DNA of 41,688 nt. Origin: an uncultured Spirochaetaceae bacterium. Its GTDB lineage: Bacteria; Spirochaetota; Spirochaetia; Sphaerochaetales; Sphaerochaetaceae. Positions within the stretch are counted from its first letter, which is position 1. Each line of letters begins with the position of its first letter. The translations under genes were made by a program, and so were the position numbers. The stretch lies in assembly GCA_944389025.1 (NCBI GenBank), contig CALXKU010000021.1:1-41688 (forward strand), in the 5' to 3' direction. Below, one piece after another: positions 107-9,517 of this stretch. The notes below the pieces were generated by a model that worked only from the letters and a program-made list of their open reading frames with translations, ran no database searches and had not been told where the DNA came from.

Positions 107-122
107 GGTGGTGGTAGTTCAC
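83..122 (+). mobile_element. Right end of an IS200/IS605-family element with subterminal hairpin
   Basis: Bases 97-101 (CACCC) and 106-110 (GGGTG) form a perfect 5-bp stem around a TTTA loop, followed by GTGGTAGTTCAC ending at about 122. Hairpin plus a GTAGTTCAC-like tail is the usual look of IS605/IS1341 right ends. These elements make no target duplication, so no direct repeat is expected. The left end lies outside the window. The reverse complement of TCA at 119-121 is the stop codon of lrgB, so the element lies flush against that gene. Confidence 0.6.
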
Positions 123-805
123 ATGAAGAATATAAGAGAGAGGATTACCGTGATTATCCCGGATGTTACAAGTGCAATTGATGAGAGTGCTCCCTGAACA
201 TCTCCCAGCTCGATGGCTTTACTTGTTCCGACCGCATGGCTTGCTGCTCCCATTGCCATGCCTTGGGCAATCTCATTCTTTATCCTAAATGTTTTTATCA
301 GCACAGGTCCGAGTATGTTCCCGCATATACCTGTTATGATCACGGCAAGCACGGTTACAGCCTCGATACCACCAAGGCTTTCAGAGACAGCTATCGCCAT
401 AGGGGTGGTTATACTCTTTGGAAGCATTGAGACTGTTATCTCATCAGGCATTAGAAAAAGATGGCAGAGCCCGTAGACTACGATAAGGGAAGTAAGCGAG
501 CCTGCAAGGCTTCCTGCTATGACGGAAAGCATATGATCTTTTAAAAGCTCTCTCTGCCTGTATACCGTTATTGCAAGCACCGCGGTAGCAGGGGAGAGGA
601 ACATGTTTATGATATCCCCTCCGTTATCATACCACTCGAGTGGGATATCAAGAAGGATGAGAAGGGGGATTATTATCAGATAGGAAATCAGCAAGGGATT
701 GAGTATCGCTTTCTTCGTTTTCCTATTAATCCATACCCCGATGCTGTATGCGACTATTGAGAGTGTTATTCCGAAAAACGGGGATGAGAAAACGGTCTCT
801 TTCAT
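119..805 (-). CDS. lrgB: LrgB/PftB-family membrane protein (pyruvate-type transport or murein hydrolase export)
   Basis: A 228-residue, strongly hydrophobic protein of the LrgB/CidB family with the family-typical glycine-rich segments MPKSITTPMAIAVSESLGG and GMAMGAASHAVGTSKA. The start is ATG at 805 (MKETVF), because an AGGAGG ribosome site lies 6-7 bases upstream; the frame stays open further upstream but only over lrgA. The stop of lrgA overlaps this start (ATGA), so the two are translationally coupled. LrgA/LrgB pairs were first described as antiholin-like; in Bacillus subtilis and Streptococcus mutans the pair takes up pyruvate. The cstA gene just upstream favours the transport role. The TGA stop lies in the end of the adjacent IS element, so the last residues may not be ancestral. 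Confidence 0.9.
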   Translation of the reverse strand: MKETVFSSPFFGITLSIVAYSIGVWINRKTKKAILNPLLISYLIIIPLLILLDIPLEWYDNGGDIINMFLSPATAVLAITVYRQRELLKDHMLSVIAGSLAGSLTSLIVVYGLCHLFLMPDEITVSMLPKSITTPMAIAVSESLGGIEAVTVLAVIITGICGNILGPVLIKTFRIKNEIAQGMAMGAASHAVGTSKAIELGDVQGALSSIALVTSGIITVILSLIFFM

Positions 806-1161
806 TTTTTCCTCCTCTCTTCCAGTCTGAGGGTGAGCGACACGGCTGCCGCTGTCACGAGAAACACGATGACCGTCGATGCTATCGCAATAAGGAAGAA
901 CTGCCACCAGACTTGCTTAATCAGATCGAAATGCTCAATCACCTTCACCCCTGCCGGGATGAAGAAGAATGCCATGTTTGAAAGCAGGAAATCGCTCTTT
1001 TCTCTTATATGATCGATTTTAAGGATTCCCGTAAAAAGCGCCAGAGCGAGAAGCAGCATAGCGATTATCGCGGAAGGGAATGGGAAGGGGAGTGCAGCCC
1101 CTATTATTTCACCCATAAGACACAGGAAGAATATTATTGCAATCTGATAAAGAATCTTCAT
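802..1161 (-). CDS. lrgA: LrgA/CidA-family membrane protein
   Basis: A 119-residue protein with about four membrane segments and the CidA/LrgA pattern (MGEIIGAALPFPFPSAIIAMLLL near the start, FFFIPAGVKVIEHF in the middle). It is the partner of LrgB and probably forms a membrane complex with it. The start at 1161 has only a weak ribosome site. Upstream are a possible -10 box (TATGAT, 1183-1188) and a perfect 10-bp palindrome, GGAAATTTCC at 1197-1206, that could bind a regulator. The terminator of cstA (1228-1265) separates it from that gene, so it probably has its own promoter. No LytS/LytR-type regulator is in the window. Confidence 0.88.
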   Translation of the reverse strand: MKILYQIAIIFFLCLMGEIIGAALPFPFPSAIIAMLLLALALFTGILKIDHIREKSDFLLSNMAFFFIPAGVKVIEHFDLIKQVWWQFFLIAIASTVIVFLVTAAAVSLTLRLEERRKK

Positions 1162-1227
1162 AGGACGCTCATGTCCGAATGTATCATATCGGGGAGGGAA
1201 ATTTCCATAATGAAGATAATGAATGCG

Positions 1228-1265
1228 AAAAAAAAAGCACCGGCGTGATGATGAGCCGATGCTTT
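1228..1265 (-). terminator. Rho-independent terminator of cstA
   Basis: On the minus strand, about 20 bases after the cstA stop, an 11-bp stem with one mismatch (core GCATCGGC / GCCGGTGC) closes a 10-base loop and is followed by nine T residues (A run at 1228-1236 on the plus strand). Confidence 0.8.
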
Positions 1266-1286
1266 CATCTGTTGTTTTTCCCAGGA

Positions 1287-2975
1287 TTATTTCTCAGCTT
1301 TCTTCCTTATAAGCTCTTTTCCTGATGTTACGACTATCGTAACTCCGAGAATCATGAGAAGAACTGCGACTATGAGCTGGAGTCCTTCAACCATGAATAC
1401 TCCGCTTCCTGCTGAGAATGCCTTTACCAGTGCGATGAATTTCTGCACGAGGGCTGAGAATGTGACAATCAGCATGATTACGAAAGGAGGAATGAGCGTC
1501 CTCATCTCCCTGCCTGTGACCTTGAGGAACACGCAGAGGGTTATGAGAACAAGTGCGCTCAGAAGCTGGTTCGCACTTCCAAATAGCGGCCATATGTTCG
1601 AGTATCCCACCTGTGTAAGGATGTAGCCGAAGAAGAGCGTGATAAGTGTTGAGACGTACTTGTTACAGAGAACCTTTCTCCAGAGTGCGGCATTATTCAT
1701 GTCGTCCTCGCTGAATAGTTCCTGGAATGACATCCTTCCGATTCTCGCTACTGAATCCAGTGTCGTGAATGCAAGAGCCGAAACACACATCGTCATGAAG
1801 CTTTCCGCCACATATACTGGAATTCCGAACATCTCTAAAAATCCTGCGACTCCTGATGAGAAGATCTGGAACGGGGTGCCTACTGCCGGTGTTCCATCGA
1901 TTCCTGCAGCCGCTCCCGCAACACAGAGTGCGATTATGGCAAGCAGACTCTCAAGCACCATCGCGCCGTATCCTACCTTGAGCATATCCTTTTCGTTTGA
2001 AATCGTCTTTGAGGATGTTCCCGATGAGACCAGGCTATGGAAGCCGGAGACCGCACCGCAGGCAACAGTTACGAAGAGAATCGGGAACATGGTCCCAAGC
2101 TGCGGGTTATTGAAGCCAGTGAATGCAGGAAGATTCATGTCAGGGTGAGCGAAAACAAGGCCGAAGACGGCACCGATTATCATGCCGATGAACATGAATG
2201 TCGACATGTAGTCACGTGGCTGCATCACGAACCACATCGGAAGGACTGCGGCAAGGAAGATATAGATGAATGCGATATATACCCATCCATCAGCGCCCAC
2301 ATAGAGCGGAAGATTGAGTCCGCATACGAAAGAGAGAACTGTGAAGAGAAGACCTAAGACGACCTCTTTCCATCCCTTGAGTGCGAGCTTCTTCTGTATA
2401 CAGCCGAATATCGCGGCAAAAAGAATGAAGAAGAGCGATGTACTACCGGCAGCTCCGTTCACTGTCGCATTGGCAACAAGCTCCCTTCCGCTTTCAGTAA
2501 CTGTGAAAGCATTGAACGTTCCTGCGACCATGTCTGCGAACGCGGCGATGACTATCAGAGAAAAGAGCCAGCAGAAACCGAGGAAGAGTTTTCTTCCTGT
2601 TTTTCCTATGTATCTTTCAATGAGAAGTCCCATCGATTTTCCGTCGTTTTTGACACTTGCGTACAGTGCTCCGAAATCCGTTACCGCTCCGAAGAAAATT
2701 CCTCCGATTACAACCCAGAGAAATACCGGGACCCAGCCGAATACTGCGGCCTGTATGGCTCCCGTTACAGGGCCAGCTCCCGCAATCGATGAGAACTGGT
2801 GAGCAAAGACCGTCCAGCCATCGGTTGGAACATAATCCTGCCCGTCGTTATGAATGGTGGCAGGTGTTTTTGCCTTGGGATCTATTCCCCATTTCTTTGC
2901 AAGCCGTCTTCCGTAAAGCACATAGGCTGCTACGAGACAGACGGCTGCTATTAAAACAATAACAAGAGTGTTCAT
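1287..2975 (-). CDS. cstA: CstA-family carbon-starvation / pyruvate transporter
   Basis: A 562-residue polytopic membrane protein of the CstA family. Typical blocks are DYVPTDGWTVFAHQFSSIAG near the N-terminus, the family's most conserved region, then GPVTGAIQAAVFGWVP and later GFHSLVSSGTSSK. It is shorter than the E. coli members CstA and BtsT (about 700 residues), as is common for CstA of anaerobes. In E. coli these proteins import pyruvate and were linked to peptide use. The ATG at 2975 has a GAGGGG ribosome site. A good promoter lies at 3064-3092, giving a leader of about 80 bases. A terminator follows, so the gene is probably transcribed alone, with lrgAB next downstream. Confidence 0.92.
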   Translation of the reverse strand: MNTLVIVLIAAVCLVAAYVLYGRRLAKKWGIDPKAKTPATIHNDGQDYVPTDGWTVFAHQFSSIAGAGPVTGAIQAAVFGWVPVFLWVVIGGIFFGAVTDFGALYASVKNDGKSMGLLIERYIGKTGRKLFLGFCWLFSLIVIAAFADMVAGTFNAFTVTESGRELVANATVNGAAGSTSLFFILFAAIFGCIQKKLALKGWKEVVLGLLFTVLSFVCGLNLPLYVGADGWVYIAFIYIFLAAVLPMWFVMQPRDYMSTFMFIGMIIGAVFGLVFAHPDMNLPAFTGFNNPQLGTMFPILFVTVACGAVSGFHSLVSSGTSSKTISNEKDMLKVGYGAMVLESLLAIIALCVAGAAAGIDGTPAVGTPFQIFSSGVAGFLEMFGIPVYVAESFMTMCVSALAFTTLDSVARIGRMSFQELFSEDDMNNAALWRKVLCNKYVSTLITLFFGYILTQVGYSNIWPLFGSANQLLSALVLITLCVFLKVTGREMRTLIPPFVIMLIVTFSALVQKFIALVKAFSAGSGVFMVEGLQLIVAVLLMILGVTIVVTSGKELIRKKAEK

Positions 2976-3063
2976 ATGTTATCCCCTCTACTCAAGACTT
3001 TTCTTTCATGTCGTACGCCTTTTTTAAGGATTTTATCGAAACGGCATGGAAAAAATCTCTTTA

Positions 3064-3248: not shown

Positions 3249-5813
3249 ATGAAAGTTCTAGTTATCGGAGCCGTAGCTGCGGGAACGAAGGCGGCGGCAA
3301 AACTAAAAAGGGAGGACAGGGCGGCAGATGTCAAGGTCATAACAAAGGGACGCGATATCTCATACGCCGGATGCGGTCTTCCATATTATATCGGAGAGAT
3401 CATAGAAAACCGTGATGAGCTTATTGTAAACACTCCTGCAAAATTTTCAGCCCTTACCGGTGTTGAGGTTTTAACTGGAGCAGAGGCTACACATGTCGAT
3501 TTCAAAACCAGGACAGTGACATATTCAAAGGATGGAAATGAAGGTACGGAGAGCTATGACAGGCTTATAATCGCAACAGGGGCTGAAAATCTGATTCCTC
3601 CTTTAAGCGGGGTATCCCTTGATGGTGTCTTCTCTCTTAGAACCCCGGACGATGCTGAGGCTATCAGGGCGTATGCGAGAAAGGAGGGGACAAGGTCCTG
3701 TGTAATCGCAGGAGCGGGTTTCATCGGGCTTGAAGTTGCTGAAAACCTTAGAAAAGAAGGGCTTGGTGTCACTGTAATGGATATGGCGCCAAGCATCATG
3801 CCGAATGCATTCGACACTGAGATGGCCTCATGGGCGAGAAAGAGAATGGAGGAGGCGGGCATACGTACCCTTACAGGAACAAGGCTTGAAGGAATATCTG
3901 GGAATGGCAAGGTTGAGTCAGTTGCAACAGATAAGGGTGAAATCAAAGCTGATATGCTGATTCTCGCACTCGGCGTACGACCTGCGACGGCATTTTTAAA
4001 GGATTCTCCTCTTGAGATGGAGAAGGGTGCGATAGTGGTGGACTCGCACATGAGAACCAACATCGATGGCGTATATGCCGCAGGAGACTGTGCTCTTGTT
4101 AGAAACAGGATCACCGGCCGTCACATGTACTCGGCAATGGGATCGACTGCGAACATCACGGCAAGGATTCTCGCACGCAATGTCGCAGGAAAGGATACGG
4201 AGTATCCAGGAGCTCTTGGATCAGGGGTTGTTAAGATTCTCGACAACCTTAACGCAGGGCGGACCGGTCTTACTGAGGAGGCGGCTTCAAGGGAGGGCTT
4301 TGATGTGATAAGCGTCGTAGCCGTAGCTGATGACAAGGCCCATTATTATGAGGGCTCCTCATTCTTCATCATTAAACTCATAGCAGAGAGGAAGACACAC
4401 CGCCTGCTCGGTTTCCAAGTCCTTGGAAGCGGTGCTGTTGATAAGATGACGGACATAGCGGTTCTTGCAATCTCAAAGGGAATGAGAGTGGAAGAGCTTG
4501 ATGCGATGGATTTCTCCTATGCTCCCCCGTTCTCAACAGCGATTTCTCCGTTCGTCCAGGCATGCAATGTTCTTGAGAACAAGATAGCCGGTGAGTTTGA
4601 GACCATGAGTCCGCTAGAGTATATGAGAGACAGAGCTAAGGGGTACAAGGTGATTGATGTGATGCCCGAAAAGAGCATCCCCGGTGCTCTCTGGATAGAC
4701 CTGGGAAAGGTGAATGGTCCCATCGATGGCCTTGATAAGGATGAAAAGCTTCTCTTGGTCTGCGCTAGGGGAAAGAGAGGATATTTCCTTCAGAACAGGC
4801 TCAAGGCATATGGCTACACCAATACGAAAGTCCTTGAAGGAGGACTCACATTCAATGATGTCAGGGTCGATTTCGGCTCTGTGATACCGTCTGAGGAAGT
4901 GAGACGGGTAAAGGGACTCGGATGCCTTCAGGATAAGAGGCAGCCGGATCATTTCAATGTCAGGGTCATAACAAGGAATGGAAAGATAACGGCAGAGGAG
5001 CAGAAGAGCATCGCGGAAGCCTCTGAGAAATTCGGCTCTGGAGAGGTCACGATGACTACCCGTCTCACTCTGGAAATACAGGGGGTTGCTTATCAGAATA
5101 TCGAACCGCTGATTGAATTCCTCAAAGAACGGGGACTCGATACCGGTGGAACGGGGAGCAAGGTCCGTCCTGTCGTCTCATGCAAGGGTACGACATGCCA
5201 GTATGGCCTCATCGACACGTTCGCTCTTTCGGAGAAGCTTCATCATATCTTCTATGAGGGATGGCACTCCGTTTCGCTTCCTCATAAGTTCAAGATTGCT
5301 GTTGGCGGGTGCCCGAACAACTGCGTGAAGCCGAGTCTGAATGATATCGGGATAATAGGGCAGCGTATCATCGATTTCGATTATGATAAGTGCAAAGGCT
5401 GCAAGATCTGTCAGGTCGAGAAGAGTTGCCCGATAAAGATTGCGCACCTTGAAGGAGGGCAACTCGTGGTGAAGGACAGCGAGTGCAATCACTGCGGACG
5501 CTGCCTCGATAAATGCCCGTTCGGTGTCACACCTTCATACCGCACAGGTTACGCCATTTATGTCGGAGGCCGCTGGGGTAAGAAGATCGAGATGGGAAAG
5601 AGACTGTCACGCATCCTCTCGAGCGAGGAGGAGGTCATAGAGACCGTTGAGAAAGCGATTCTCCTTTTCCGCGATGAGGGAATAAGCGGGGAACGCTTTG
5701 CGGACACTGTGAACCGTCTCGGCCTTGAGTACGTTGAGAATAAGCTTTTCAATTCGAAGATTGACAAAGAGGCGGTCTTGAAGAAGAATGTAATTGGCGG
5801 GGCTACCTGCTGA
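3249..5813 (+). CDS. Four-module sulfur reductase: CoA-disulfide reductase + rhodanese + siroheme sulfite reductase-like + 2[4Fe-4S] ferredoxin
   Basis: An 854-residue cytoplasmic fusion. Residues 1-440 are a CoA-disulfide/persulfide reductase: FAD motif GAVAAG at 7-12, active-site Cys42 in AGCGLPYY, NAD(P)H motif GAGFIG near 155, FAD motif AAGD near 277. Residues 455-545 are a rhodanese domain with Cys505 in the loop CARGKRG. Residues 570-710 resemble the siroheme/[4Fe-4S] domain of AsrC-type sulfite reductase: Cys645-x5-Cys650 and Cys688-x3-Cys692 (GGCPNNC). Residues 715-760 hold two ferredoxin clusters (Cys715/718/721/727 and 746/749/752/756). CoA-disulfide reductase-rhodanese proteins reduce CoA persulfide and polysulfide to sulfide. 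The added sulfite-reductase half suggests NADH-driven reduction of sulfite or of a sulfur intermediate in a single chain. The ATG at 3249 is chosen because the FAD motif follows directly and a GAGGCG ribosome site precedes it. Confidence 0.88.
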   Translation: MKVLVIGAVAAGTKAAAKLKREDRAADVKVITKGRDISYAGCGLPYYIGEIIENRDELIVNTPAKFSALTGVEVLTGAEATHVDFKTRTVTYSKDGNEGTESYDRLIIATGAENLIPPLSGVSLDGVFSLRTPDDAEAIRAYARKEGTRSCVIAGAGFIGLEVAENLRKEGLGVTVMDMAPSIMPNAFDTEMASWARKRMEEAGIRTLTGTRLEGISGNGKVESVATDKGEIKADMLILALGVRPATAFLKDSPLEMEKGAIVVDSHMRTNIDGVYAAGDCALVRNRITGRHMYSAMGSTANITARILARNVAGKDTEYPGALGSGVVKILDNLNAGRTGLTEEAASREGFDVISVVAVADDKAHYYEGSSFFIIKLIAERKTHRLLGFQVLGSGAVDKMTDIAVLAISKGMRVEELDAMDFSYAPPFSTAISPFVQACNVLENKIAGEFETMSPLEYMRDRAKGYKVIDVMPEKSIPGALWIDLGKVNGPIDGLDKDEKLLLVCARGKRGYFLQNRLKAYGYTNTKVLEGGLTFNDVRVDFGSVIPSEEVRRVKGLGCLQDKRQPDHFNVRVITRNGKITAEEQKSIAEASEKFGSGEVTMTTRLTLEIQGVAYQNIEPLIEFLKERGLDTGGTGSKVRPVVSCKGTTCQYGLIDTFALSEKLHHIFYEGWHSVSLPHKFKIAVGGCPNNCVKPSLNDIGIIGQRIIDFDYDKCKGCKICQVEKSCPIKIAHLEGGQLVVKDSECNHCGRCLDKCPFGVTPSYRTGYAIYVGGRWGKKIEMGKRLSRILSSEEEVIETVEKAILLFRDEGISGERFADTVNRLGLEYVENKLFNSKIDKEAVLKKNVIGGATC

Positions 5814-5893: not shown

Positions 5894-6745
5894 ATGTTTA
5901 AAAGGCTCTTTCTTTGTCTTATCATCATTCTTTGTGCTCTTTTTCCTGTTTTTTCCATGCGTACAGCATGTCTTAATTCTTCGATTGCCGATTTATGGAA
6001 GCTTGCTGGAGGGAGTGTGGACATAACTGTTGCGGAGGCTCAAGAGCGAGGTTTTGCTGATGATAGCGCCATCCTTGTCGACTCCTCATCTGGGCGGAAC
6101 ATAAATCTTGAAGTCCTGATTTCCGCAGAGCCGGATCTTGTTCTGGGATCAGTCGACACCGAAAGCCATGTTCGCCTTAAAGCATTCCTTTGTGACATAT
6201 CGGTTGATATGCTCCTCATAAAGCAGGACAGCTTTGATGATTTTTTATCGATTTTCAAGACCTTAACAGGCATTACCGGGAGAAATGATCTCTATCAGGA
6301 ATACGGGGAAGGGCAGAGAGAGGGCATAGAGGAACTGATTGAGGAGGCAAAGGAAGCCGAGAAAAAGCCACGTGTGCTTTTCATCCGTGCGGGCAGTGCG
6401 TTCTCCTATGTGAAAGCAAAAAGGGCGGAGGACCATTTTGCCGCCAGGATAATAGAGGAGCTAGGAGGAATCAACGTCGCCGATGAGGTGGAAGCCTTAA
6501 CCGATTCCATCTCCCTTGAGGCCATACTGAGCACCGACATCGATAAGATAATCATAGTAAGCCAGGGGGATGAGGGTGCGAGCCGCTCTTATGTTGAGAA
6601 TCTTTTTTCTCAGCCAGGATGGCGTGATGTCAAGGCAATAAGAGAGGATGCTGTCGTCTTTCTTTCCAAGGAGCTTTTTCACTTCAAGCCCAATGGGAGA
6701 TGGCTGGAGGCATATGGTGTTATGAAAGAGGTACTATATGGATAA
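5894..6745 (+). CDS. ABC importer substrate-binding protein, FecB/BtuF-like (iron complex, heme or corrinoid)
   Basis: A 283-residue exported protein. Residues 1-21 form a signal peptide (KR, a long hydrophobic stretch, then PVFSM) without a lipobox cysteine, so it may be periplasmic or anchored by its signal. The rest fits the class III helical-backbone binding fold: a first lobe with ISAEPDLVLGS near residue 75, a long helix around residues 128-155 and a second lobe with IEELGGINVADE. It overlaps the permease gene by 8 bases and shares its operon. Binding proteins of this kind carry ferric siderophores, heme or cobalamin; the ligand cannot be read from sequence. The chelatase gene downstream favours a tetrapyrrole or its metal. 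Confidence 0.8.
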   Translation: MFKRLFLCLIIILCALFPVFSMRTACLNSSIADLWKLAGGSVDITVAEAQERGFADDSAILVDSSSGRNINLEVLISAEPDLVLGSVDTESHVRLKAFLCDISVDMLLIKQDSFDDFLSIFKTLTGITGRNDLYQEYGEGQREGIEELIEEAKEAEKKPRVLFIRAGSAFSYVKAKRAEDHFAARIIEELGGINVADEVEALTDSISLEAILSTDIDKIIIVSQGDEGASRSYVENLFSQPGWRDVKAIREDAVVFLSKELFHFKPNGRWLEAYGVMKEVLYG

Positions 6746-7706
6746 GAAATTCACAATCACATCGATACTATCCATTGCGGCCCTTCTCATCATATTTTCC
6801 GTATCTCTATTGGTTGGAAGCATCCCCCTTAATATCCCGGATCTCCTTACTGCGGGCAGTGTTTCTAATATCGTATTCTTCTCCATCCGTCTTCCCCGGG
6901 TGTTCGCGGCTCTCCTTTCCGGCCTCGCGTTCTCCGTTTCAGGACTGTTGATTCAGAGGGCAACTGGAAATGGGCTTTCAAGTCCGAACATAATAGGGGT
7001 GAACTCTGGTGCGGGGGCATCGGTTCTCCTTTTTCTCTCCCTTGCTCCTGATATGTTTGCCATTTTACCCTTGGCCGCGTTTCTTGGTGCCATCATCTCT
7101 GTCTCCATCGTATTTTTAATCTCATCTTTGACAAAAAGGGTATCATCATCTATTTCCCTGATTCTTTCAGGGGTTGCTGTGAATGCGCTTTTCAATGCCG
7201 TAATAAGTACGATAAGTTCCTTGGATCCTGAGACAATGGCATCATATTCTGCGTTCTCAATCGGAGGTTTTTCCGGGATATATTCATCAATGCTCAGAGT
7301 ACCTGCACTTTTGATAATTATCTCCATAGCGCTCTCTTTCCTGCTTTCGGATAGGATGGATGTCATCTCACTTGGAGATGAGATAGCCTCTTCCATGGGT
7401 TACAGACCCTTGGGTATAAGAATTCTTCTCATCGCCATCGCATCTCTTCTTGCCGCCTCAGCGGTGACTTTCTCAGGTCTTTTAGGCTTTGTCGGCCTTG
7501 TAACACCTCATGCAGCATCATTCCTCACATCTGATAACAGCAGGAGAACCCTTATTCTTTCCTCACTGATCGGTCCATCTCTCGTAATGCTTTCAGATCT
7601 TGCAGGGCGCACAATTATAAGCCCCTCAGAGCTTCCTGCAGGGGTGTTTATGGCAATTATCGGGGTACCGTTCTTCATATTCCTGCTTCTAAGGAGGAGT
7701 GACTGA
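6738..7706 (+). CDS. ABC importer permease, FecCD/BtuC family
   Basis: A 322-residue membrane protein with about ten helices. It carries the FecCD-family signatures IRLPRVFAALLSGLAFSVSG near the N-terminus, NPNIIG-like SSPNIIGVNSGAGASV and, near the C-terminus, LLGFVGLVTPHAASFL, the coupling-helix region that contacts the ATPase. It forms a homodimer in this transporter class. The start overlaps the stop of the binding protein, and the stop overlaps the start of the ATPase (TGATG), so all three are translationally coupled. Confidence 0.9.
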   Translation: MDKKFTITSILSIAALLIIFSVSLLVGSIPLNIPDLLTAGSVSNIVFFSIRLPRVFAALLSGLAFSVSGLLIQRATGNGLSSPNIIGVNSGAGASVLLFLSLAPDMFAILPLAAFLGAIISVSIVFLISSLTKRVSSSISLILSGVAVNALFNAVISTISSLDPETMASYSAFSIGGFSGIYSSMLRVPALLIIISIALSFLLSDRMDVISLGDEIASSMGYRPLGIRILLIAIASLLAASAVTFSGLLGFVGLVTPHAASFLTSDNSRRTLILSSLIGPSLVMLSDLAGRTIISPSELPAGVFMAIIGVPFFIFLLLRRSD

Positions 7707-8416
7707 TGGTAAGAGTTGAACATTTGACCATCAAAATAAGGGGGCAGGAGATTCTTTCCGATATCTCCCTCTGTTTGGAAGATGGTAAGATTTATGCGCT
7801 CCTTGGAGAGAATGGCAGTGGTAAGACCACGCTTTTAAGAGCTCTGACTTCGTATTACCCTGATTATAGCGGTTCGATAGATTTTGATGGCAGGGAATTA
7901 AGAAGCCTTAAAAGAAAAGAGAAGGAGATGGTCCATGCGATTCTCCCGCAGAGCATCCCAATTCTTGATTCATCCGTTTCGGCTCTCCTTTCCATGTATC
8001 CCGAAGCTTTGAAGCATCTTGAAAAATATGGGCTACTCTCTCTTCTTGAACGCAGAATAAACACCCTCTCAGGTGGAGAGAGGGAGATGGTGTTCCTCTC
8101 TTTTCTTCTTTCTCGCCGTGTTAAGCTTTACGCTCTCGATGAGGTGGAGGCGAATCTTGGAATGCGTTATAAGAGGAGATGTGAGGAGGCGATGCTCTCT
8201 TTAAAGGGGGATGGCAGGATAGTCTTCTCATCCTTCCATGATCTTAGCAGGGCTTTTCTCATTGCAGATGAGGCCATCGTACTTGAAAAAGGAAGACTCG
8301 TCTTCGCAGGCTCAAAAGGGGAGTTCATCTCCCGGAATATCGCACAAAGGTATTTCGATTCGAGCGTCGGAGTACTTAATGAACTGTCAGGAAAAGAGAG
8401 AATCGTTTTCTTTTAA
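7706..8416 (+). CDS. ABC importer ATPase, FecE/BtuD-like
   Basis: A 236-residue ATPase with Walker A GENGSGKTT near residue 35, signature LSGGEREMVFLS near 120, Walker B LYALDEVEANL with the catalytic Glu, and the switch His in SSFHDLSRAF. Walker B reads LDEV where LDEP is usual. It powers the FecCD-like permease just upstream. The last 30 bases overlap the convergent chelatase gene, so the two 3' ends share sequence and their transcripts can pair. Confidence 0.9.
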   Translation: MVRVEHLTIKIRGQEILSDISLCLEDGKIYALLGENGSGKTTLLRALTSYYPDYSGSIDFDGRELRSLKRKEKEMVHAILPQSIPILDSSVSALLSMYPEALKHLEKYGLLSLLERRINTLSGGEREMVFLSFLLSRRVKLYALDEVEANLGMRYKRRCEEAMLSLKGDGRIVFSSFHDLSRAFLIADEAIVLEKGRLVFAGSKGEFISRNIAQRYFDSSVGVLNELSGKERIVFF

Positions 8417-9085
8417 GAGGGCAGTGAAATTGCTTTCAAATATTTCTGAGAGCTCTGGAAACTCCTGAAGAATGCCATGTTCTATCATGCTTACGATTTT
8501 ACCTTGCTTTTTAAAATACGGGACGAGAACCTCTTTTATATCATGTTTGGCATGGTGTCCGAAGAAAAGAAGGAACGGGATTACATGAATCACTTCTTCC
8601 TCTATTTCAAATGACTTATAGCATTCTGAGCCTTTTAGTGTCCTTAGCCTTATGTCGGATCTTAAGAGGGAGTTCAGAATCTCGAATTCTTCATTCTTTT
8701 TTCCTTCCTCCCCATGAGCGATGAGAAGATATTTGACGCCAGATAGCTTTTCAAGCTTACCATTTATGATGCCTGCAACTCTCCTGATATTCTCCTCCCT
8801 CCCAAGGAGTGGGGCTGCGGTCTTAAAGCCGTATGACAGGATTTTCTCATACTCCCTTCCTTTCTGGATCAGAAGTGGCATTATGATAATCTCATTATCA
8901 GCGTTATCTCTTATTACCTCTTCAATATTTCTCTTGTCACCTGCTTCTGTCATTACATGGGATGAGTAGGCGAATATGCACGGGTACGGGGAGAGAGATG
9001 AGAGCCTTTTTTCCATGTTTTCGATATCCTTTGCCGCCTTCTCATCCTTTGTTCCGAAACTTGCTATGATGACTTTTTTCTGCAT
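8387..9085 (-). CDS. cbiK: CbiK-like sirohydrochlorin chelatase (iron or cobalt)
   Basis: A 232-residue protein of the CbiK class II chelatase family: VIIASFGT at the N-terminus, PLLIQKGREYEKI near residue 70, the metal-binding His124 in LIAHGEE and FFGHHAKHDIKE near 175. CbiK inserts cobalt into sirohydrochlorin on the anaerobic cobalamin route, but members can also insert iron and make siroheme. There is no signal peptide, unlike the periplasmic Desulfovibrio form. It points towards the FecBCD-like operon and overlaps its last gene by 30 bases. The siroheme-type sulfite-reductase domain 5 kb away makes siroheme assembly an attractive role. No other cobalamin or siroheme gene is present here. 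Confidence 0.8.
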   Translation of the reverse strand: MQKKVIIASFGTKDEKAAKDIENMEKRLSSLSPYPCIFAYSSHVMTEAGDKRNIEEVIRDNADNEIIIMPLLIQKGREYEKILSYGFKTAAPLLGREENIRRVAGIINGKLEKLSGVKYLLIAHGEEGKKNEEFEILNSLLRSDIRLRTLKGSECYKSFEIEEEVIHVIPFLLFFGHHAKHDIKEVLVPYFKKQGKIVSMIEHGILQEFPELSEIFESNFTALLKENDSLFS

Positions 9086-9127: not shown

Positions 9128-9517
9128 ATGAAGACATTTTTCTCAAATCTTTCTAAACTGATTGCCATGAAAGGTTTCTCTTATTATGTATGCCCTCATT
9201 GTGGCAATGTCCTGGTCTCATCTTCTCCTCTTTCTCCATCCTGCTGCGGTAATGAGATCGCTGCCCTGATGCTCTCTGAAGCTCCCTCTTCTCTGTCCCT
9301 TCCTGTAAGAAAAGACGGAGATGAGATCATCGTGAGCCTTACACATCCGATGAGAAAGGATGAGTATGTCACATTCATTGCAATTGAGTCATATGATGCC
9401 CTTGTGCTCAAGAAACTGTATGCCGAGTGGAATGAGGATGTGATATTCCCTTACATGAAGGGTCGTCTTGTGTGGGCCACTTCCACCGGTAAGGGATACT
9501 TCCAGAGGCTTATCTGA
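9128..9517 (+). CDS. Desulforedoxin/desulfoferrodoxin-like protein lacking most superoxide-reductase ligands
   Basis: A 129-residue protein. Residues 19-44 resemble the desulforedoxin iron site: YVCPHCGN then SPSCCGNE, two cysteine pairs that would hold an Fe(Cys)4 centre. The second half keeps a piece of the superoxide-reductase fold (THPMRKDEYVTFI, compare the family's EHPM...HYI). The further histidines and the C-terminal Cys-x2-His of the catalytic iron centre are absent, so superoxide reduction looks doubtful and electron transfer or sensing is possible. The ATG at 9128 has AGGAG directly against it; ATG at 9167 is an alternative and would leave the metal site intact. Confidence 0.55.
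   Translation: MKTFFSNLSKLIAMKGFSYYVCPHCGNVLVSSSPLSPSCCGNEIAALMLSEAPSSLSLPVRKDGDEIIVSLTHPMRKDEYVTFIAIESYDALVLKKLYAEWNEDVIFPYMKGRLVWATSTGKGYFQRLI

Follow-up and report, generated by a model that had tools for sequence, protein, structure and literature searches.

How can a gut spirochaete in which neither hemC nor cobA is found keep an enzyme predicted to depend on siroheme? The question is raised by the window, a 41,688-nucleotide stretch of DNA from an uncultured Spirochaetaceae bacterium (assembly GCA_944389025.1, contig CALXKU010000021.1), which encodes a multi-module reductase followed by a candidate importer and a sirohydrochlorin chelatase-like protein (Table 1). Siroheme is commonly regarded as a cofactor of each cell's own making. 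Judging from sequence and genomic context, we propose, with a probability of roughly three in four, that this locus is a siroheme-salvage operon feeding a single-chain sulfite/sulfane reductase, the cargo of the importer being suggested by the company its genes keep.

The reductase gene is a single unbroken frame that runs from an ATG at 3249 to a stop codon at 5811-5813 on the plus strand and encodes 854 amino acids (aa). Pfam domains above their curated cut-offs follow one another along the chain, namely Pyr_redox_2 (residues 1-288, E 7e-66), Pyr_redox_dim (333-432, 6e-17), Rhodanese (464-533, 4e-07), NIR_SIR_ferr (562-627, 5e-15) and NIR_SIR (636-833, 2e-28), the last enclosing a 4Fe-4S dicluster domain (710-757). 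Residues 1-535 matched coenzyme A (CoA)/NADH persulfide reductases with a rhodanese, and residues 564-826 matched F420-dependent sulfite reductase. In the AlphaFold model (mean predicted local distance difference test score (pLDDT) 87.1, predicted template modelling score 0.69), residues 1-537 superposed on the Archaeoglobus fulgidus persulfide reductase 6pfz_A over 530 residues (Z 43.8, root-mean-square deviation 1.8); the structural matches listed for the fusion model cover residues 1-541 only and say nothing on the sulfite-reductase half. An earlier reading of the DNA, made from the sequence only, had proposed that persulfide reductase, rhodanese, siroheme and ferredoxin modules are joined in one frame. 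This is confirmed, both by the domain search that it suggested (Pyr_redox_2, Pyr_redox_dim, Rhodanese, NIR_SIR and Fer4, all above curated cut-offs) and by recurrence of the frame in 35 genomes of the same family.

At E<=1e-30, the reductase was found in 43 of the 139 genomes of the window's GTDB family, 35 of them in two genera with the fusion (or contig-cut remains of it) and eight in a third genus, whose reductase stands alone. When 85,000 species genomes were scanned, at least 585 relatives were returned; in all of the 80 best, which come mostly from gut Firmicutes, the same reductase and rhodanese fusion was present. Given this recurrence in 35 same-family genomes and 80/80 best public relatives, the fused frame lies far beyond chance. 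Named hosts include Bullifex porci, Candidatus Ornithospirochaeta, Holdemania, Schaedlerella, Dorea sp. 5-2, Pseudoflavonifractor, Gemmiger formicilis and Ructibacterium, and among named relatives the window protein comes closest to one from a chicken-gut Ornithospirochaeta bin, a spirochaete, with 84% identity across the whole chain. The fusion is thus a widespread uncharacterised gut enzyme rather than a local oddity, and its architecture is not unique to the window.

The catalytic and cluster cysteines are Cys42 of the CoA-disulfide reductase site, Cys505 of the rhodanese loop, Cys645/Cys650 and Cys688/Cys692 of the siroheme-[4Fe-4S] site, and Cys715/718/721/727 and Cys746/749/752/756 of the two ferredoxin clusters. 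All of them are invariant in an alignment of 45 full-length relatives, and the sites described by the sequence-only reading are intact; the flavin adenine dinucleotide (FAD)/NAD(P)H reductase at residues 1-288 is complete. Met1 is invariant as well, which supports the start codon at 3249. In the structure of F420-dependent sulfite reductase (Fsr) from Methanothermococcus thermolithotrophicus (MtFsr), Arg423, Lys460 and Lys462 hold the ligand, Arg355 holds a water and Arg388 is a marker of the assimilatory type (PMC10229431). Residues Arg355, Arg388, Arg423, Lys460 and Lys462 of MtFsr align with Arg572, Arg605, Arg640, Lys680 and Lys682 of the window enzyme, and the five are invariant in the 45 relatives. 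By the established chemistry of the family, these conserved residues argue for a predicted six-electron reduction of sulfite, in keeping with the sulfite/sulfane chemistry anticipated earlier. It could be argued instead that the chain acts only as a CoA or thiol persulfide reductase and that its sulfite-reductase half is an electron-transfer or structural relic, since its persulfide reductase and rhodanese modules are both whole and correspond to CoA persulfide reductases that have been characterised. However, invariance of the five anion-site residues and of the four siroheme-cluster cysteines across distant relatives indicates a pocket that is not degenerate and speaks against a dead siroheme domain. 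Moreover, hosts unable to make siroheme keep the importer gene set beside the reductase, and we regard a relic as very unlikely.

In contrast to this conservation, the host appears unable to make any tetrapyrrole. Profile searches of the window genome (2.3 Mb, 97.6% complete) returned no match to hemC or to cobA/cysG. No hemC match at E 0.001 was obtained in any of the 139 family genomes by profile search, and cobA exceeded its cut-off in one of them (G397, 272 bits), which may be a contaminated bin. Since every known tetrapyrrole is made via uroporphyrinogen III, these hosts should be unable to make siroheme by known pathways. The apparent lack of siroheme synthesis had been overlooked by the sequence-only reading, as had the linked candidate importer, the invariant C-terminal cysteine and the spread of the architecture among gut Firmicutes. 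A scarcely credible alternative is that an unknown or very diverged HemC supplies uroporphyrinogen III and that no import is needed. The absence is indeed one of matches to profiles of known enzymes, but the hemC profile was positive in 11 of 14 control genomes and detected the gene in 21 fusion-bearing public relatives at 211-334 bits, and cobA is also missing in most hosts.

The genes directly downstream of the reductase (5894-8416) offer a possible source of the cofactor. They follow it in all of the 20 family loci inspected, including five with the standalone reductase of the third genus, where the binding proteins are only 28-35% identical. With Peripla_BP_2, FecCD and ATPase components in one operon, they form a class III tetrapyrrole/siderophore ATP-binding cassette (ABC) importer. 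Scores against NCBIfam models were too low for assignment as the heme importer IsdE (40 of 299 bits) or the vitamin B12 importer BtuFCD (BtuF, 25 of 234 bits; BtuC, 149 of 334). The model of the binding protein fitted best to heme-binding IsdE (Z 25.4), followed by the uncharacterised Listeria protein 5joq, the putative iron-binding protein 4m7o, BtuF and several heme binders (Z 21-22), with siderophore binders at 19-20. Among annotated proteins, heme and B12/cobinamide binders fit best (Z 21-25), and this ranking supports, without proving, a tetrapyrrole ligand. Furthermore, Arg165, Lys174, Lys176, Lys259, Lys265 and Arg269 are basic in at least 90% of 30 homologues and no histidine is conserved, which would suit a ligand with eight carboxylates that needs no axial histidine.

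If siroheme comes in through the importer, a fusion host with siroheme synthesis of its own could do without that importer. We therefore searched for hemC in the genomes of 25 public fusion loci with an adjoining importer and 25 without, and found it in 0/25 of the former and 21/25 of the latter (Fisher p 4e-10, ignoring kinship). A profile built from 26 importer binding proteins was run on the 25 importer-less genomes and on 54 reductase-less genomes of the window's family. In the four hemC-less exceptions (L099, L117, L126 and L138), it detected the binding protein with 345-378 bits; the importer sits at another place in the genome, which rules out assembly gaps as the cause of these exceptions. 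The binding protein was not found in the 21 fusion genomes with hemC (best 60 bits) or in the 54 hemC-less, reductase-less family genomes (best 80 bits). Across the 50 fusion genomes, the binding protein is present in 29/29 without hemC and 0/21 with hemC; among these hosts of a siroheme enzyme, the importer is confined to those without hemC. The importer state changes at least five times on the protein tree, and hemC takes the opposite state in 5/5 supported independent contrasts. The association between importer and hemC is strong but rests on few independent switches.

Next to the importer, and convergent with its ATPase gene, lies a gene for a CbiK-family protein, which scored 48 bits against PF06180 (cut-off 26.2) and whose His124 and His177/178 are invariant in 12 operon CbiKs. 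Against the model for CbiK sirohydrochlorin cobaltochelatase (NF047852) it reached 20 of 400 bits; it is a divergent member, and its metal is not predictable. By profile, 18 family genomes encode CbiK, and every one of them belongs to the 43 that carry the reductase. The chelatase on the importer side varies by lineage: spirochaetes, Holdemania and others have CbiK, L092 and L119 have a Met8-type protein, and Gemmiger-like operons have a Met8-CobA protein (CysG). CbiK lies between the fusion and the binding protein in L088, L133 and L136, and beside an unlinked importer in L156. By established function, the reaction common to CbiK, Met8 and CysG is metal insertion into sirohydrochlorin. Of 25 hemC-less public genomes tested, 10 had Met8/CysG above the cut-off; none of the 43 family genomes did. 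A role of CbiK in siroheme synthesis was reported for Salmonella (Raux 1997, as cited in PMC7242693).

The same gene set might instead serve iron acquisition, with the importer taking up heme iron or ferric siderophores, CbiK acting as an iron-harvesting heme de-chelatase like HmuS of Bacteroidota, and the position of the genes reflecting how much iron an enzyme with many clusters requires. Heme, siderophores and B12 are all taken up by members of this importer family, heme de-chelation by a chelatase-like protein is known in gut bacteria (PMC12583661), and CbiK has a weak solved-structure match to heme-binding FetB (E 0.31). However, iron need leaves unexplained why the binding protein is absent from 21/21 fusion genomes with hemC and from the 54 reductase-less relatives without hemC. 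In addition, Met8 and CysG, which take the place of CbiK beside the importer, belong to the siroheme branch, and the binding protein conserves basic residues rather than a histidine. We consider iron acquisition unlikely.

Some observations weigh against siroheme salvage as proposed. A sign test on the independent contrasts alone gives p 0.06, and many of the genomes are metagenome bins, in which some absences may be assembly gaps. As judged by the CbiK and Met8 profiles, CbiK and Met8-type chelatases are both missing from 25 of the 43 family genomes that have the reductase, so the cargo there would be siroheme itself, or another chelatase such as CbiX would be used; for this reason, sirohydrochlorin as the sole cargo was not adopted. 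Moreover, in three hemC-less Gemmiger/Faecalibacterium-like genomes a full CysG (Met8-CobA) lies directly after the importer (L130:11870-13186 (+), L129:11875-13179 (+) and L145 (G434:C150)), and an earlier precursor could be imported there. Taken generally, this would make the cargo uroporphyrin(ogen) III or precorrin-2, to be finished to siroheme in the cell. CysG is also encoded elsewhere in three further hemC-less genomes, and human stool contains uroporphyrin III (PMC6461909). Most importer genomes, the window genome included, lack CobA, however, so that uroporphyrinogen III would be useless to them, and the window lineage has a chelatase only. As a general account, import of such an early intermediate therefore seems improbable.

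As for related genes elsewhere, in three hemC-less Lachnospiraceae the CysG-like gene lies near metF, with the importer at another place (L148:6744-8138 (+), L149:7924-9324 (-) and L150:6762-8141 (-)). Four hemC-less importer genomes (G432, G433, G439 and G440, of loci L100, L106, L129 and L130) gave corrin-methyltransferase matches of ~135-146 bits to the cobA profile, under its cut-off, as if B12 could be built from an imported early tetrapyrrole.

Under the siroheme-salvage proposal, the binding protein would capture siroheme, or metal-free sirohydrochlorin, released by neighbouring gut bacteria, and the FecCD permease and ATPase would import it. Iron would be inserted where needed by CbiK (Met8 or CysG in other lineages), and siroheme would then be loaded into the reductase. 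In the enzyme, rhodanese Cys505 may accept sulfane sulfur from thiosulfate or another donor, with release of sulfite; the persulfide would be reduced to sulfide with NADH at the FAD-Cys42 site, and the siroheme site would reduce sulfite to sulfide with six electrons delivered via the two ferredoxin clusters. Because the rhodanese step would provide one site with sulfite and the other with persulfide, the combination of modules suggests complete thiosulfate reduction, in which one chain could turn both sulfurs into sulfide; sulfite alone or persulfides alone are also possible substrates.

The chain ends in GGA(T/S/K)C in 76/76 complete fusions, and this tail is absent from the standalone spirochaete reductases of the third genus in the same family, which are 46-51% identical. 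By analogy with DsrC, we infer that the flexible Cys854 tail may act as a swinging arm that passes sulfur or electrons from one site to another. The sequence-only reading had proposed that electrons go from NADH through FAD and the ferredoxin clusters to siroheme; the clusters could equally be fed by ferredoxin. That the electrons of the siroheme half come from reduced ferredoxin, with the fusion serving substrate channelling only, competes with the proposed electron route and not with salvage, and we rate it as a serious contender at somewhat under even odds. In AsrC/Dsr-like proteins, electrons normally enter through such inserted ferredoxin clusters, and the FAD of CoA persulfide reductases normally hands its electrons to the residue equivalent to Cys42; NirB and Fsr, however, show that single-chain transfer from flavin to siroheme is possible. 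The most far-reaching version, which we advance only tentatively and consider less likely than not, combines two claims: that siroheme or sirohydrochlorin is a public good in animal guts, where many anaerobes of two phyla have lost tetrapyrrole synthesis and retain a siroheme enzyme thanks to a dedicated importer, and that the enzyme is a self-contained thiosulfate-to-sulfide reductase in which sulfur is passed among the rhodanese, flavin and siroheme sites by a terminal cysteine arm.

Table 1 Features of the reductase and candidate importer locus in the window, with predicted functions and the evidence for each.
Feature	Position	Strand	Evidence
Four-module reductase: CoA/NADH persulfide reductase, rhodanese, siroheme sulfite reductase with two inserted [4Fe-4S] clusters, GGATC tail	3249..5813	+	Pfam; solved-structure matches 6pfz, 8a56, 7np8; AlphaFold
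NAD(P)H/FAD persulfide (CoA-disulfide) reductase module, aa 1-432, active Cys42	3249..4544	+	Pyr_redox_2, Pyr_redox_dim; model fit to 6pfz_A
Rhodanese module, aa 464-533, loop Cys505	4638..4847	+	PF00581, E 4e-07; Cys505 invariant in 45 relatives
Siroheme-[4Fe-4S] sulfite reductase module, aa 562-833; CX4C-X37-CX3C, five conserved Arg/Lys	4932..5747	+	PF03460, PF01077; alignment with MtFsr 7np8
Ferredoxin insert, aa 714-760, eight Cys, two [4Fe-4S] clusters	5388..5528	+	Fer4_10/Fer4_6; all eight Cys invariant
C-terminal tail, last residue invariant Cys854 (GGATC-COOH)	5784..5810	+	End sequences of 76 complete fusions; residues 852-854 disordered in model
Substrate-binding protein of candidate siroheme/sirohydrochlorin importer	5894..6745	+	PF01497; model pLDDT 92.1; IsdE fit; phylogenetic profile
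FecCD/BtuC-type permease of importer	6738..7706	+	PF01032, E 2e-76; syntenic in 20/20 family loci
Importer ATPase	7706..8416	+	PF00005; best NCBIfam match is heme ABC transporter ATPase, under its cut-off
CbiK-family sirohydrochlorin chelatase (putative), convergent with ATPase gene	8387..9085	-	PF06180 above cut-off; invariant His; co-occurrence with reductase

Several neighbouring genes were also observed. A 129-aa protein encoded at 9128-9517 (+) starts with a CxxC zinc-ribbon-like segment and has a weak desulfoferrodoxin match (E 0.007); it stands beside CbiK in the nearest relative too (59% in L065). LrgA/LrgB-like and CstA-like genes (119-3000, minus strand) precede the operon on the opposite strand, and LrgAB also occurs near the reductase in L050 and L062. 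A divergent LysR-family regulator, possibly sulfur-responsive, lies upstream of the reductase in many Firmicutes and standalone spirochaete loci (L088:5368-6234 (-), L136:5361-6221 (-), L045:10242-11120 (+) and many others), and was not found adjoining the window gene. Matches to consensus promoters in the region were no commoner than in shuffled sequences.

In the open-access literature, to which our search was confined, we found no report of siroheme or sirohydrochlorin import beyond an Aspergillus siroheme auxotroph, and no paper on the fusion or on a Sphaerochaeta sulfite reductase. The siroheme-importer assignment is not described there, and the salvage reading is the surprising part of our analysis. 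With a conserved importer that mirrors hemC loss, siroheme would become a nutrient that gut microbes trade, and the sulfide made by common anaerobes would depend on their neighbours. The reductase itself is an uncharacterised potential sulfide source, all of the 80 inspected relatives being fused. Because it scores under the AsrC and DsrA/B cut-offs, surveys relying on those profiles would miss it.

Compared with known enzymes, the window protein combines the sequence features of two classes, the CoA-disulfide/NADH persulfide reductases with rhodanese (Pyr_redox_2 with dimerisation domain, Cys42 and rhodanese Cys) and the siroheme sulfite reductase superfamily (NIR_SIR_ferr, NIR_SIR, four cluster cysteines and the five MtFsr Arg/Lys). 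Residues 1-540 have the same order, active Cys42 and rhodanese Cys as Enterococcus faecalis CoAPR (8a56), the Archaeoglobus enzyme (6pfz), Shewanella Npsr (3nta) and Bacillus anthracis CoADR-RHD (3icr), with 31-34% identity and Z 40-44, whereas the window chain adds a siroheme reductase, ferredoxin clusters and a terminal cysteine tail; whole-protein cut-offs for CoA-disulfide reductase (TIGR03385 and NF007123) were not reached (388 of 578.8 and 398 of 458 bits). With the C-terminal half of Fsr, the group III Dsr-like proteins and AsrC, it shares the siroheme-[4Fe-4S] fold, two inserted [4Fe-4S] clusters and all five MtFsr Arg/Lys. Unlike Fsr and AsrC, its electron input is a persulfide reductase module rather than an F420H2 oxidase or AsrAB, and it has CX4C-Xn-CX3C where they have CX5C. 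Assignment as F420-dependent sulfite reductase proper fails because the N-terminus is Pyr_redox and there is no N-terminal F420H2 oxidase module. Scores lie far under the AsrC (TIGR02912, 101 bits against a cut-off of 324) and DsrA cut-offs, and the DsrA/B equivalogs are likewise below their curated cut-offs; the earlier label of an AsrC-type domain was thus loose, the closest solved relative of that half being F420-dependent sulfite reductase.

The sequence-only reading knew of no characterised enzyme with this order of modules. The open-access literature does not contradict this, but NirB is a known single-chain NADH-FAD-FeS-siroheme analogue, likewise joining a Pyr_redox NADH/FAD module and a siroheme module in one chain. 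It differs in that the window chain has no BFD-type [2Fe-2S] domain in its Pfam list and carries a rhodanese and ferredoxin clusters instead, and NirB assignment (TIGR02374) reached 228 bits against a cut-off of 578, matched in three stretches. In DsrC/TusE-type proteins, a conserved cysteine sits at the flexible C-terminus of a protein that works with a siroheme sulfite reductase; in the window enzyme the terminal cysteine belongs to the reductase chain itself, and the likeness is one of analogy. Each module is known, and the whole chain is not described in the open-access papers searched.

The importer shares with IsdE, ShuT/HmuT, RhuT and BtuCDF the binding-protein fold and the same three components, a binding protein, a FecCD permease and an ATPase. 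It differs from them in sequence (14-19% identity), in its own set of basic residues and in its genomic tie to a siroheme enzyme and sirohydrochlorin chelatases. As a way of life, tetrapyrrole salvage is known for 5-aminolevulinate, which is used for cobamides (PMC6461909). Like the salvagers of 5-aminolevulinate, the hosts described here lack early tetrapyrrole steps and need an outside supply; unlike in those bacteria, the missing part extends past hemC and usually past cobA, and a specific importer co-occurs with the loss.

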